Source of the DNA: Geovibrio thiophilus
GTDB lineage: Bacteria > Chrysiogenota > Deferribacteres > Deferribacterales > Geovibrionaceae
Length of the DNA: 64,000 nt
Direction: 5' to 3'
Assembly: GCF_004087915.1 (NCBI RefSeq)
Contig: NZ_CP035108.1
Span: 62,001 to 126,000 of the forward strand
The notes under the pieces are model-generated. The model did no database searches. It was not told the DNA's origin and saw only the letters and a program-made list of their open reading frames with translations. Positions 5,416-61,703 of this stretch are shown one piece after another; position 1 is the first letter of the stretch, and every line of letters starts with the position of its first letter. The position numbers and the translations under genes were made by a program.

Positions 5416-5462
5416 GCGGAGCCGTCCCCTGATGTAACCGAGAGGTGAGGTCGTCCTCACAT
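5416..5462 (-). promoter_or_regulatory. Guanidine-II (mini-ykkC) riboswitch
   Basis: On the minus strand two short hairpins carry the ACGR loops that define this class: GTGAGG-ACGA-CCTCAC (5445-5460) and GGGG-ACGG-CTCC (5418-5429, one G-U pair). They are separated by about 15 bases and lie 20-65 bases before the gdx start. In the family guanidinium bridges the two loops and frees the ribosome site. The match of aptamer to a guanidinium exporter supports the call. Confidence 0.88.
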
Positions 5463-10539: not shown

Positions 10540-10569
10540 TTTCTCTGCGGAGTTCGCAATGACTCAAAC

Positions 10570-10659
10570 AGTTCCATGAACGGAACTGCGCCGTACGAAG
10601 CGAAGCCGTGTTTACCAAGGCGTGAGCGTGTGCGTAAAAGGAGCAGGATGTACCCTTTT
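10570..10659 (+). repeat. Three-hairpin repeat element, copy 1 (degenerate)
   Basis: Hairpin A pairs AGTTCC (10570-10575) with GGAACT (10582-10587). The core is GCGCCGTACGAAGCGAAG (10588-10605). The B stem is eroded (GCC/GGC left). A GTGAGCGTGTGCG link leads to hairpin C, AAAAGG (10636-10641) and CCTTTT (10654-10659), with a loop containing CAGGATGTA. It lies between pirin and the yceD-fab cluster. Confidence 0.7.
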
Positions 10660-10820
10660 CTGCGGCAAGACGGATTGATCTTGACTTTCCATTTTAATCT
10701 ATATAAGATTTTCCCTCATTTTGACCGCTTGAAGTGCGCCCTGCCGAAGGGTGCTTGGAAACGGCTGAAAAACACGGTCAAAAGCCCTGACACACAGGGT
10801 TTGCGCAAAGGTTTAGGACA

Positions 10821-14575: not shown

Positions 14576-14706
14576 ACCACACAACCCCAAGGAAGGGGTT
14601 GCGCCGTGCGAAGCGAAGGATTGCTTTGCAATCCGCGAGCGGTTAAGGAAACGGACAGGATGTGCCGTTTCCGAATATAGTCAATACGAAGACGGAATAT
14701 AGACCA
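14559..14706 (+). repeat. 21-bp direct repeat of the fabD 3' end flanking a repeat element
   Basis: The 21 bases at 14559-14579 (last fabD codons, stop codon and four more bases) recur exactly at 14686-14706. The three-hairpin element lies between the two copies. The downstream copy has no reading frame. It looks like a target-site or slippage duplication created with the element. Confidence 0.85.
14583..14672 (+). repeat. Three-hairpin repeat element, copy 2 (archetype)
   Basis: Hairpin A: AACCCC/GGGGTT (14583-14600). Core: GCGCCGTGCGAAGCGAAG (14601-14618). Hairpin B: GATTGC/GCAATC with a TTT loop (14619-14633). Link CGCGAGCGG. Hairpin C: GGAAACGG/CCGTTTCC with loop ACAGGATGTG (14647-14672). 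All three stems are perfect. The gap 14576-14946 holds this element, a hairpin pair and a fragment. Confidence 0.88.
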
Positions 14707-20122: not shown

Positions 20123-22054
20123 ATGAAAAAAGTCTTACTGATTGACGACAGCGTTACCATTCACAGGGTAATAGACATCTGCCTTGACAAGGACAGGTTC
20201 ATCACGGAAAAAACCTTCTCCGCAGACGATGCAGTAATGAAGCTGAAAAACTCTCCCGCCGACATAGTTCTGCTGGATAACAAGCTCGAAGGGATTCTTC
20301 TGGGTGATTTCATCGCAAAGATCCGTTCGCTGGCTCCTGTTTCATGGATAATTCTCCTGACCGGAGCATTCGACCAGTTTGACGACAGCGACCTAGCCAG
20401 ATCCGGCGCGGACGACTACCTTTTCAAACCCTTCGATTCACAGGCAATAGATCTTAAAATAAACTACGGGCTGAATACAGCGCACCGACCTGCGGCAGCG
20501 CCAGCAATGCCGGAGCAGATTATATCCGAGGAACAGACGGAGATTCTCCCCGCTGAGGAAGAATCCCCGGCGGAGGAAGCTGCCTTCATCGACCTTCGGC
20601 AGGAGGAACCGCCCGCTGAAGAGGCTGTCCCCTCATTTGAAGAAGAATCGGCAGAGCCGGAAACCGCTGAAGAGGAAATCCCCTCCGCGGAGGATATATT
20701 CTCCGAAGACGAGCCGGAAACCGAAGAAGCCGCAGGGAAATACGGAGAAGAGGACAGCGAGGACAGCTTCCCCTTTGACGATACGGAGCCCTCAGCAGCA
20801 GTATCCGAAGAAGAGAAGGCTGAGTTGGGGAATCTTTTCGGAGATATTGAAGGTCTTGCTGACATAGCGGATATTGCTGAGCCAGAAACAGCTGAGCCCT
20901 TGGAAGAAAGAGAGGAAGAGTCCTCTAAGGCTGAAGAACCGGAAGAGGATCTCGATTCCTTCCTGAAAGATCTCGACACCGCAGAAGCTCCCGAGCTTGA
21001 AATCATAGAGGAAGAGGAGACGGTTCCCGAACCTGCGGCTGAGGATTTCAGCGGACTGCTGGAAGAGCTGGGAGAAACAGAAGAACCGGCGCCGGAAGAC
21101 ATCCCCGAATACATCATTGAGGAAGAGGAAGCTTCCGACCCCTTCTCGGGGCTTACCCTGACGGATGAAGAGGACATGTTCGCCTCACCCGAGCCGGAAG
21201 CGGAACCCGCAGCTGAGTATGTCATAGAAGAAGAAAAAAGCGATGACGGCGACATCTTCGCGAATCTCATGCAGATAAGCGTTGAAGACGTGATAGACGA
21301 TAAACCGGCACTCACGGAGGAAGAGATTCGGCAGGAAGCCGCTGAACCCGCAGAGACTGATGAGACTGATGAGACTGATGAGACTGCCCTCGATATTATC
21401 ACTGAAGGCTTTCCTGAAACAGGAATACCTGTGGACGGAGAAATAGTTGACGAACAGCAGGAAGCGGATCTTTCCGCCGATGCGATAGAGAGCATGCCCA
21501 TTGAGACGGATTTCTCCGAACTCACACCGGCTGATGAATCAACGTTTGAAGAAACCTCCGAAGAAACAGTGGAGGAGCCCGTTATAATCAGGGATGAGGA
21601 AACGGCTAATGTGATTGAGGAAGAGGTCACCTTCACTGAAGAAACACTGCCCGAACCGGAAACAGCCCCTTCTCCCGATGCAGATGCGCCTGAGGAGATC
21701 ACTCCTGAGAAAGAGGAGCTCCCCGAAGCAGAGACAGAACCCGCCGAACCGGAATTCATCACAGTAGAAGAGCCCGAAGCGGAGCCGGCGGCATTTGAGG
21801 AATTTCCGGCTGAGCAGTTCGCCCCGCTGAAAGAGATGGAAGAGGATCACGAACCTGTTAAAGCACCCGCGGTCGGACTGGCGCAGGACGAAATAAAAGA
21901 GATTGTCTACCGCTCCTTTGACAGCGGAATGTTTAAAAGCGCCATTCAGGAAGTGCTTGCGGAAAAAATGGAGGAAGTGCTGAGAGAAGTGCTTCCCGAA
22001 ATTGCCGAAATGGTTATAAGAGAAGAAATAGAGCGCCTTAAGAGAGGAGAATAA
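20123..22054 (+). CDS. Response regulator with very long acidic linker and conserved C-terminal helix
   Basis: A CheY-like receiver (1-120: LLIDDS, phosphoacceptor in VLLDNK, KPF) is followed by about 440 residues dominated by Glu, Pro and Ala with DETDET repeats, probably disordered. A C-terminal 60-residue amphipathic segment (EVLREVLPEIAEMVI, EEIERLKRGE) ends the protein. That tail resembles ones on response regulators of delta-proteobacteria, including gliding or pilus regulators, but no output domain is recognised. The start at 20123 follows GAGGAG; a GTG at 20111 is less likely. 643 aa. purM begins on the next base after its stop. Confidence 0.8.
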   Translation: MKKVLLIDDSVTIHRVIDICLDKDRFITEKTFSADDAVMKLKNSPADIVLLDNKLEGILLGDFIAKIRSLAPVSWIILLTGAFDQFDDSDLARSGADDYLFKPFDSQAIDLKINYGLNTAHRPAAAPAMPEQIISEEQTEILPAEEESPAEEAAFIDLRQEEPPAEEAVPSFEEESAEPETAEEEIPSAEDIFSEDEPETEEAAGKYGEEDSEDSFPFDDTEPSAAVSEEEKAELGNLFGDIEGLADIADIAEPETAEPLEEREEESSKAEEPEEDLDSFLKDLDTAEAPELEIIEEEETVPEPAAEDFSGLLEELGETEEPAPEDIPEYIIEEEEASDPFSGLTLTDEEDMFASPEPEAEPAAEYVIEEEKSDDGDIFANLMQISVEDVIDDKPALTEEEIRQEAAEPAETDETDETDETALDIITEGFPETGIPVDGEIVDEQQEADLSADAIESMPIETDFSELTPADESTFEETSEETVEEPVIIRDEETANVIEEEVTFTEETLPEPETAPSPDADAPEEITPEKEELPEAETEPAEPEFITVEEPEAEPAAFEEFPAEQFAPLKEMEEDHEPVKAPAVGLAQDEIKEIVYRSFDSGMFKSAIQEVLAEKMEEVLREVLPEIAEMVIREEIERLKRGE

Positions 22055-31188: not shown

Positions 31189-31222
31189 TACGCTACCTTT
31201 TAGATTTTAAACTCTATCTGCT

Positions 31223-31334
31223 ATGAGAGAACCCTTTTTCCACAGGAAAAAAGGGTTCTCTCATACTCACTCCCAAAAACCTGAAATTCGGGTTTTGAGG
31301 GGGAACGGGGGAACTTTTGCCTAAAAGTTTCCCC
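31223..31334. repeat. Paired-hairpin repeat (D plus E type), terminator-like
   Basis: ATGAGAGAACCC with a T run pairs with an A run and GGGTTCTCTCAT (31223-31264). It is followed by CTCCCAAAAAC, GTTTTGAGGGGGAACG and the second hairpin GGGGAACTTTT/AAAAGTTTCCCC (about 31307-31334). Family copies occur at 14741 and 55642. It sits between yraN and gmhA and may block read-through. Confidence 0.65.
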
Positions 31335-31348
31335 GAAAACAAATCTAT

Positions 31349-31826
31349 GCACCGAATGCGTTTATTATGTGCGTTATTTCAGCTGTCTTAACAACAAAAA
31401 TCCGCACATCCTGTCGGATTTTTGTACACGCTCGCGCCGAATTCTCATTCGGCTTCGCTTCGCACGGCGGGTTTCCGATCCTCGGAACCGGAGTCAAGCA
31501 CCGAATGCGTTTATTATGTGCGTTATTTCAGTTGTCTTAACAACAAAAATCCGCACATCCTGTCGGATTTTTGTACACGCTCGCGCCGAATTCTCATTCG
31601 GCTTCGCTTCGCACGGCGGGTTTCCGATCCTCGGAACCGGAGTCAAGCACCGAATGCGTTTATTATGTGCGTTATTTCAGTTGTCTTAACAACAAAAATC
31701 CGCACATCCTGTCGGATTTTTGTACACGCTCGCGCCGAATTCTCATTCGGCTTCGCTTCGCACGGCGGGTTTCCGATCCTCGGAACCGGAGTCAAGCACC
31801 GAATGCGTTTATTATGTGCGTTATTT
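31349..31826 (-). repeat. Three 149-bp tandem units: three-hairpin element plus duplicated yraN 3' end
   Basis: Exact period of 149 bp (units at 31349, 31498, 31647), with a partial fourth at 31796 that is the true yraN end. On the minus strand each unit has hairpin A (31470-31488, slightly imperfect), the core GCCGTGCGAAGCGAAG, hairpin B GCCGAAT/ATTCGGC (31436-31453), and hairpin C AAAAATCCG/CGGATTTTT with loop ACAGGATGTG (31396-31423). A 31-bp copy of the yraN 3' coding end follows each. Units are nearly identical, so the expansion is recent. The gap 31189-31791 has no gene. Confidence 0.9.
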
Positions 31827-32130
31827 TATCATTGTCTATGGAAATCACATCGAAGCGGCAGAGTTTTTCCGGATTATTTTCCATGAGATAGAACTCGGCT
31901 GTGCGTATAATTTTTTCCTGTTTGGCGTGTGTTACTGACTGGTAGCCTTCGCCGAAGGCGTCTGAGGAGCGTGTCTTGACTTCGACAAACACCAGTGTGC
32001 CGTTCTTTTCGGCTATTATATCGATTTCGCCTGTTTTGGCTCTGTAGTTGCGTTTTACGACGGAGTACCCGTTTTTTTTCAGGAACACTGCCGCCTTGTC
32101 CTCGCCGGACTTACCTTTTAATATCCGCAT
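31792..32130 (-). CDS. yraN: UPF0102 / YraN family endonuclease-like protein
   Basis: 112 aa. The nuclease-fold motif GEIDIIAEKNGTLVFVEVKTR is the family signature (restriction endonuclease-like core). No defined role; often next to rnhB as here, overlapping it by 20 bases. The last ten codons (ITHIINAFGA and stop) are duplicated three more times downstream in the tandem repeat. Confidence 0.9.
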   Translation of the reverse strand: MRILKGKSGEDKAAVFLKKNGYSVVKRNYRAKTGEIDIIAEKNGTLVFVEVKTRSSDAFGEGYQSVTHAKQEKIIRTAEFYLMENNPEKLCRFDVISIDNDKITHIINAFGA

Positions 32131-52891: not shown

Positions 52892-53049
52892 AAAAACACC
52901 GACCTGTATGAAAAATCTTTTTTACTTTTTCTAAAACAACCCGCCCTCCGAAATGAGCAGGGAAAAGTCACAAATTATATATAGCACATGTCCGTTTTTC
53001 AAGCAGGAAAAAACAGGACAGTCAGATACTCTTGCGTCTCAACACAAAC

Positions 53050-53139
53050 GCTCCACGGATGGAGTTCCGCCGTGCGAAGCGAAGGCTTGCTCCGCAAGCC
53101 GCGAGCGCGTATCCTGAATTTCCATGGAAGAAAATTCAG
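53050..53139 (+). repeat. Three-hairpin repeat element, copy near lipoprotein (left)
   Basis: Hairpin A CTCC/GGAG with loop ACGGAT (53051-53064), core CCGCCGTGCGAAGCGAAG, hairpin B GGCTTGC/GCAAGCC (53084-53100), link GCGAGCGCGTAT, hairpin C CTGAATTT/AAATTCAG with loop CCATGGAAGA (53114-53139). Gap 52892-53328 holds this, a REP pair and a second copy. Confidence 0.85.
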
Positions 53140-53154
53140 AATTATACAAGCAGA

Positions 53155-53224
53155 GACTGTCGCGTCGCTTAGGCTCCTCGCAGTGACACTGTTGACTGTC
53201 ATTGCGAACGAAGTGAAGCAATCT
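53155..53224. repeat. REP-like palindromes (two half units)
   Basis: ACTGTCGCGTCGC and CTCCTCGCAGTGACA form one palindrome, and GTCATTGCGAACGAAGTGAAGCAATCTC forms a second. The second is close to repeats found in many unrelated bacterial genomes. They separate two three-hairpin elements. Confidence 0.65.
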
Positions 53225-53227
53225 CAT

Positions 53228-53319
53228 AACTCCACGGAGGGAGTTCCGCCGTGCGGAGCGAAGGCAGGTTTATCCTGCCGCGAGCGTGTATCCTGAATTT
53301 CCATGGAGGGAAATTCAGG
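53228..53319 (+). repeat. Three-hairpin repeat element, copy near lipoprotein (right)
   Basis: Hairpin A AACTCC/GGAGTT with loop ACGGAG (53228-53245), core CCGCCGTGCGGAGCGAAG, hairpin B GGCAGG/CCTGCC (53263-53279), link GCGAGCGTGTAT, hairpin C CCTGAATTT/AAATTCAGG with loop CCATGGAGGG (53292-53319). It lies ten bases beyond the convergent lipoprotein stop, C side first. Confidence 0.87.
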
Positions 53320-53328
53320 ATTATTAAA

Positions 53329-55780: not shown

Positions 55781-55963
55781 GCATCTTCATCCGTGGAGAT
55801 GTTTTATCCGAAAAAATCCTTTATTTTATCAACTTAATACCGGCGAACCTGCGTCCTGCGGTTCGCCTGAACCGCTCGCGCCTTGCGGGGCAAGTCTTCG
55901 CTCCGCACGGCGCATCTTCATCCGTGAAGATGTTTTATCCGAAAAAATCCTTTATTTTATCAA
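55781..55963 (-). repeat. Three-hairpin element flanked by a 52-bp duplication of the dnaJ 3' end
   Basis: 55912-55963 (last nine dnaJ codons, stop and hairpin A) recurs at 55781-55832 with one change. Read on the minus strand: dnaJ end, hairpin A CATCTTC/GAAGATG with loop ACGGAT (55913-55932), core GCCGTGCGGAGCGAAG, hairpin B CTTGC/GCAAG, link GCGCGAGCG, hairpin C GGCGAACC/GGTTCGCC with loop GCAGGACGCA (55842-55867), then the duplicate. The duplicate end has no gene. Confidence 0.88.
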
Positions 55964-59055: not shown

Positions 59056-59103
59056 AAAATGCCTCCTGAATATATCTTTTTCTTTTTAAATCCGTTCTTA
59101 TCA

Positions 59104-59133
59104 CCGTAATCTGAATGTCCTGTCAGATTACGG
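59104..59133 (-). repeat. Isolated C-type hairpin upstream of dnaK
   Basis: CCGTAATCTG and CAGATTACGG form a 10-bp perfect stem; on the minus strand the loop is ACAGGACATT, the C-loop pattern. GTGTAC precedes it on that strand, as in other elements. It lies 50-80 bases before dnaK. Confidence 0.7.
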
Positions 59134-59149
59134 TACACGCGTCTGTCTT

Positions 59150-59512
59150 ATTTATTGGTTCAAAAAAGACGCGTCCTGCGCTTTTTTTCACTCGCAGCCT
59201 GCGGAGTAAAACTCCTTGCTGCTCTCGTTACGTTTGCGCTGCTCGCATTCGCTGTGCTGCGCACTCCACGCACCCATCCATGGGTGTGCTCTCGTTATAT
59301 TGCACGCATCTGTCTTATTTTGGTTCAAAAAAGACGCGTCCTGCGCTTTTTTTCACTCGCAGCCTGCGGAGTAAAACTCCTTGCCGCTCTCGTTACGTTT
59401 GCGCTGCTCGCATTCGCTGTGCTGCGCACTCCACGCACCCATCCATGGGTGTGCTCTCGTTATATTGCACGCATCTGTCTTATTTTGGTTCAAAAAAGAC
59501 GCGTCCTGCGCT
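59150..59512 (-). repeat. 165-bp tandem repeat (about 2.2 copies) of a variant three-hairpin element
   Basis: Period 165 bp (59158, 59323, 59488). On the minus strand each unit has an A-type hairpin CACCC/GGGTG with loop ATGGAT, a longer GC-rich core with GCGAATGCGAGCAGCG, a B-type hairpin GGAGTTTTACTCC, and an AAAAAAG...CTTTTTT hairpin with loop CGCAGGACGCGT. The first two units differ by a few bases only. It splits grpE from dnaK. Confidence 0.85.
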
Positions 59513-59548
59513 TCATACCATAACAAATTTGGTTTCTTTGGAAAGAGT

Positions 59549-59590
59549 CTGAGAAAACCTTTCTTTACCATAAAAGAAAGGTTTTTTCAG
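59549..59590. repeat. D-type hairpin between grpE and repeat block
   Basis: CTGAGAAAACCTTTCTTT and AAAGAAAGGTTTTTTCAG form a long AT-rich stem with a short ACCATA centre. T tract suits termination on either strand; on the minus strand it would follow grpE. Confidence 0.6.
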
Positions 59591-61492: not shown

Positions 61493-61684
61493 CTGAAAAC
61501 AAAAACGCTCCCAAGGATGGGAGCGCACCGTGCGTAGTGAAGCCGCATTTCATGCGGCGCGAACGTGTATACGCCCCTGAAAACAAAAACGCTCCCAAGG
61601 ATGGGAGCCCGCCGTGCGTAGTGAAGCCGCATTTCATGCGGCGCGAACGTGTATGCCAAATTCCCATGGATGGAGAATTTGGCA
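61493..61684 (+). repeat. Tandem pair (84-bp period) of three-hairpin elements between lpxC and hrcA
   Basis: Unit 1 has A GCTCCC/GGGAGC with loop AAGGAT (61507-61524), variant core CCGTGCGTAGTGAAG, and B GCCGCAT/ATGCGGC (61542-61558). Unit 2 repeats these from 61577 and ends with hairpin C TGCCAAATTC/GAATTTGGCA, loop CCATGGATGGA (61655-61685 region). The gap 61351-61740 has no gene. Confidence 0.85.
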
Positions 61685-61703
61685 TTGTTAAGTCGAGATT
61701 CCC

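Follow-up and report, generated by a model that had tools for sequence, protein, structure and literature searches.

A tandem array at the 3' end of yraN in Geovibrio thiophilus belongs to a genome-wide family of structured repeats with GGA-loop hairpins, which are candidate CsrA-binding elements

We analysed a 64,000-nucleotide stretch of the Geovibrio thiophilus genome (the window), in which the 3' end of yraN adjoins a tandem array. The element that is repeated here belongs to a structured repeat found throughout the genome, with GGA in its loops; the initial annotation had not recognised this. The part that derives from the yraN tail is incidental. The explanation that we rate as the likeliest, giving it about an even chance on the basis of the sequence comparisons, is that the elements are transcribed, CsrA-binding parts of 3'-untranslated regions, whose arrays multiply the binding sites.

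TRF analysis of the 64-kb window returned the array with a period of 149 bp, 3.2 copies and a 99% match, a pattern far beyond chance expectation. It consists of three 149-bp units and a 31-bp fourth piece, which reproduces the start of the unit without mismatch and is itself the 3' end of yraN. We named this 31-bp segment R and the other 118 bp of the unit E (Table 1). Indeed, TRF and the unit comparison both agreed with the earlier description of three near-identical 149-bp units plus a partial fourth contributed by yraN. One point of it needs amending: the outermost R is located on the far side, and the order on the plus strand is flank-R-E-R-E-R-E-R-yraN, with yraN-tail sequence at both borders. 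Like yraN, the element reads in sense on the minus strand, and the first bases of E supply the yraN stop codon TGA (GGT GCT TGA). The only base that differs among the three units is position 31383, which is C there and T in the other two. The near identity of the units would fit a misassembled single copy, but we consider such an artefact highly improbable, since multi-unit arrays occur at many sites of this genome, assembled as one 2,997,552-bp contig, and in another same-genus assembly, and since one substitution marks a unit. Short-read assembly also tends to collapse such repeats rather than to expand them. Beyond the array lies a perfect 18-bp inverted repeat (TATGAGAGAACCCTTTTT/AAAAAGGGTTCTCTCATA; window 31222-31265), and similar AACCCTTTTTT palindromes recur in other gaps, near 59540-59580 and in L113; these may represent a second repeat or terminator family.

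Table 1. Positions in the window of the yraN array, its parts and further members of the repeat family
Feature	Position	Strand
Whole array, R-E-R-E-R-E-R	31349..31826	-
Unit 1, 149 bp	31349-31497	
Unit 2, 149 bp	31498-31646	
Unit 3, 149 bp	31647-31795	
R, copy of yraN 3' end, far side of array	31349..31379	-
R, copy of yraN 3' end	31498..31528	-
R, copy of yraN 3' end	31647..31677	-
R in place, last codons of yraN proper	31796..31826	-
Element E, unit 1	31380..31497	-
Element E, unit 2	31529..31646	-
Element E, unit 3, adjoins yraN and provides its stop codon (31792-31794)	31678..31795	-
Hairpin 1, unit 3; loop AGGAT 31776-31780, repeated at -149 and -298	31768..31787	-
Core, unit 3: CGCCGTGCGAAGCGAAG [CCGAAT...ATTCGG] CGCGAGCGTGT	31724..31767	-
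Hairpin 2, unit 3: ATCCG-ACAGGATGT(G)-CGGAT, GGA 31707-31709	31692..31723	-
yraN (UPF0102, PF02021), 112 aa, intact	31792..32130	-
Same family, single unit	10566..10668	+
Same family, single unit, missing at the orthologous place in G022	14579..14680	+
Same family, two units	53045..53326	+
Same family, single unit	55834..55935	-
Diverged weak matches within 165-bp tandem array	59098..59456	-
Same family, two units, 84-bp period	61503..61690	+

Comparison with the same-genus genome G022 clarified the history of the site. The yraN-gmhA gap of G022 contains one element right after the yraN stop codon and no repeat of the yraN tail, which indicates a local amplification specific to the window's lineage, the yraN tail having been carried along. 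Together with the single substitution among the three units, this bears out the recent expansion proposed in the initial annotation. The simplest history would thus be that one element was present before the split of G022 from the window's genome (G000), and was later amplified with 31 bp of yraN in the window's lineage. Since no R would be expected past the last E after plain tandem duplication of R plus E, the arrangement of n full units and a partial one would rather fit repeated template switching. Insertion with a target-site duplication, for which the R on both sides was considered, is weakened by the single orthologous element of G022, whose flank is not duplicated; at the empty sites the alignment is too weak to locate the element ends. 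In itself, the array represents an ordinary event of the VNTR type. In G021, which belongs to the same genus, no element was found in the stretch read after yraN and the downstream gene is different, an AAA-type-ATPase-like gene taking the place of gmhA (L112), and no element was seen after yraN in Denitrovibrio-like genomes. A different tandem array, with a 416-bp period and GGA hairpins, lies downstream of yraN in G023 (L115 282-1379), and the same gene end has thus been amplified in two genera.

The element is by no means confined to yraN. E gave 118 BLAST matches in its own genome, mostly in tandem arrays with site-specific spacers and periods of 84-203 bp, most of the other arrays having non-integer copy numbers. 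As each spacer is the local flank of its own array, the yraN tail is local baggage outside the element, and the earlier statement that gene end and element travel together does not hold as a general rule, the family occupying dozens of sampled sites, each array with its own flank. The covariance model R1 was run on 400 kb of sequence sampled at even intervals and without selection, and detected 35 units there (46 matches in all, 11 of those in the window), which extrapolates to about 260 units in the 3.0-Mb genome, a rough figure because the units are clustered. The number of tandem units differs between relatives, being three in G000 and one in G022 at yraN, and it differs at other sites too. 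At 13 orthologous sites the element is common to both species, often with different copy numbers; the units are 48-87% alike between the species at 12 of these sites and 94% alike at one, while within arrays they are mostly 92-100% alike, some arrays containing clearly diverged units. Differences in presence and absence between the two genomes run both ways.

Several arrays showed features of their own. In those of L020, L021, L026, L031 and L040, an AGACAGA-like sequence that follows hairpin 2 is linked at the repeat junction to the 3' half of hairpin 1, and the inner units lack a complete hairpin 1, pointing to a possible breakpoint preference near the hairpin tip. In another array, the start of a fliM-like gene (MADILSQEEIDALL) is repeated (L042 2204-2629 in G000, L070 3155-3539 in G022); both species have two units there, and the element is antisense to the gene. 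The diverged, weakly matching elements near the end of the window lie in the gap that precedes a dnaK-like gene, within a 165-bp tandem array of 2.3 copies (59098-59513).

Each unit consists of hairpin 1, a conserved core and hairpin 2, both hairpins carrying GGA loops. Compensatory stem changes were abundant, with 139 cells against 44 in shuffled controls and 22 of 34 pairs changed on both sides in the 25-unit seed alignment, which was not fitted to the structure. In the alignment of 130 distinct units, which was fitted to it, 1094 cells were changed on both sides, against 275 in shuffled and 106-214 in slid controls. While the stems vary, the loops do so far less; a GGA apex is present in 105 of 128 hairpin-1 and 150 of 169 hairpin-2 sequences, the hexaloops of hairpin 1 read A-N-G-G-A-N with positions 2 and 6 free, and hairpin 2 carries CAGGAUG. 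A raw count of GGA loops over all perfect hairpins did not settle the matter, as it includes both strands. The outer core helix (CGUGC/GCGUG) is almost invariant, and its pairing is therefore only predicted.

These hairpins might alternatively act in DNA. In a REP/MITE-like repeat, the hairpins would form in single-stranded DNA and serve in mobilisation or slippage, a recombinase would recognise the element by its GGA loops, the arrays would result from slippage, and any RNA effect would be incidental. We regard this explanation, the main rival, as possible, although somewhat doubtful. The high copy number, the presence/absence differences between species and the tandem arrays with partial end units are in its favour, as are the compensations, which are mostly Watson-Crick with few wobbles. 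The wobble tests for RNA-level versus DNA-level selection disagreed, as the fitted alignment gave 35 GU against 11 AC, whereas the alignment-free version with 6- and 7-bp arms gave 38:30 and 53:59, without the asymmetry that strand-specific selection would leave; the alignment-free run with 8-bp arms was distorted by a conserved flanking A/C pair, and the asymmetry was not counted in favour of RNA-level selection. On the other hand, the genome encodes no Y1/RAYT transposase (PF01797 absent), BLAST found no plasmid or phage match, the core pattern had no match in IMG/VR, and the loop variation is limited to two positions that are free in CsrA sites. The positional bias described below also argues against a REP/MITE-like repeat. 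The searches gave no support for a RAYT, phage or plasmid origin, and an integron attC array was rejected, as no integron integrase exceeded the cut-off in the genome.

The position of the elements, as analysed with simple codon-usage gene calls, points to mRNA 3' ends. Just over half of the sense elements (44 of 84) begin between -20 and +30 bp from the upstream stop codon. In gaps between codirectional genes, 55 elements are sense and 19 antisense in G000 and G022 combined (p=1.7e-5, the true p being larger because some sites are orthologous pairs), and the bias appears in each genome separately (30:14, p=0.011 in G000; 25:5, p=0.0002 in G022). Furthermore, 26 sites lie in convergent and 4 in divergent gaps, although among the gaps of 60-1000 bp in the sampled sequence 19 are convergent and 26 divergent, and terminator-like hairpins are found downstream of 25 of 66 arrays, where 9.4 were expected. 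Taken together, these observations make the elements look like parts of 3'-untranslated regions read in the GGA sense. Their location, with a stop codon just before them and terminator-like hairpins further downstream, would also suit a 3'-end element of mRNA stability or processing, whose hairpins stop exonucleases or form RNase processing sites without CsrA. The stable fold of the array RNA (z=-6.1) would agree with such a function, but the complementary strand folds nearly as well (z=-5.0), and neither the conserved ANGGAN loops nor the core would be needed, making this role rather unlikely.

The loops also bear on CsrA binding. The genome has one CsrA gene, adjoined by a FliW gene. The CAGGAUG of hairpin 2 is of the CsrB repeat type. 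As in CsrB/Rsm-type RNAs, several GGA-loop hairpins share an ANGGA consensus, and the loop pattern of hairpin 1 matches the CsrA/RsmA/RsmE site CANGGANG as quoted in PMC4894983. This resemblance to CsrA docking sites suggests that the repeats may soak up CsrA. We propose that many mRNAs carry the transcribed element in their 3'-untranslated region, where the unit RNA would fold into a structured core flanked by two GGA-loop hairpins, whose loops would bind CsrA. The element transcripts would then titrate CsrA, or CsrA binding would influence what becomes of the host mRNA, with FliW acting alongside. Local tandem amplification, by repeated template switching or unequal exchange, would pull in any flank that the copied segment contains, such as the 31 bp of yraN, and raise the number of CsrA sites per transcript. 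Some findings count against CsrA binding: antisense elements make up a quarter of those in codirectional gaps, some hairpin-1 loops lack GGA (four have TGA instead), the conserved core of about 30 nt is unaccounted for by CsrA, the two GGA motifs within a unit are separated by about 70 nt, more than the 18 nt quoted as optimal for a single dimer, and in G023 the GGA hairpins occur on both strands.

The distribution in other genomes was also compared with that of CsrA. Within the phylum, R1 had at least 78 matches in each of three same-genus genomes, 6 and 2 in two neighbouring genera, and barely reached detection in two genomes from a further family. All genomes with R1 matches have CsrA, and R1 is absent from all nine genomes without a CsrA match, a co-occurrence that lends weak support, since most genomes have CsrA. 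Among 84,980 species genomes, the exact core pattern was numerous only in the MAG Deferribacterales bacterium Deferri_01; isolated matches in Variovorax, Kuenenia, Rhodobacteraceae, Planctomycetota and other single genomes had near-background model scores and were taken as chance. The plan of GGA hairpin, core and GGA hairpin is retained in diverged elements of other genera, with the loops ACAGGGATGT and ATGGAC in G045, CAGGAAG and ATGGAC in G040 (a two-unit tandem between codirectional genes), ATGGAT or ACGGAG in G019, and ATGGAY-type hairpins in a 93-match repeat of G023. These would represent other CsrA-compatible loops.

REP/BIME are clustered intergenic palindromic repeats, and the element is likewise an interspersed intergenic palindromic repeat in clusters, differing in its GGA loops, its sense bias and the lack of a RAYT. 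The sponge RNAs CsrB/CsrC and RsmX/Y/Z similarly carry multiple GGA-loop hairpins (ANGGA, CAGGAUG), which there bind CsrA/RsmA. In contrast to their one or few dedicated sRNA genes, the present family comprises hundreds of dispersed, putative 3'-UTR units with a conserved core between the hairpins, and its CsrA binding is putative. No Rfam family matched the element, including the CsrB, RsmX/Y/Z and TwoAYGGAY (RF01731) models. TwoAYGGAY resembles it in its paired hairpins with AYGGAY loops, proposed as CsrA sites outside Gammaproteobacteria (PMC4333381), while the present element is high-copy and has a different core. Titration by mRNA-borne sites has precedents in the flaA mRNA (PMC4894983), which titrates CsrA, and in the 3'-UTR-derived RsmU (PMC7694677), which titrates RsmA, both being single loci rather than a repeat family. 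The MIRU of Mycobacterium, intergenic repeats of 40-100 bp at 41 locations, some with variable tandem copy number (PMC2734929), are similar by description; the present family has a three-part hairpin structure and about six times more copies. As no paper on the repeat was found in the open-licence literature, the family appears, as far as tested, to be undescribed, and would be a variant of CsrA-binding RNAs if binding holds.

If the loops do bind CsrA, a repeat family would distribute the binding capacity of the regulator across the transcriptome, and repeat expansion would be tied to post-transcriptional control in a phylum from which we found no Csr sponge RNA described. More tentatively, the hundreds of dispersed, locally amplifying 3'-UTR repeats might supplement or replace a CsrB-type sRNA in titrating CsrA, so that copy number tunes a global regulator, with related genera owning their own versions. 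Such a role would give a high-copy intergenic repeat a concrete function, and it could be tested through the differing copy numbers at orthologous sites. Without CsrA binding, the elements would still form a well-defined new family of structured repeats with VNTR-like arrays.

Finally, two further features were recorded elsewhere in the window, namely a perfect 9-bp tandem repeat (GAGACTGAT, 3.8 copies, 21353-21386; TRF) and, at 5417-5460 on the minus strand, a Guanidine-II riboswitch match above the gathering score.
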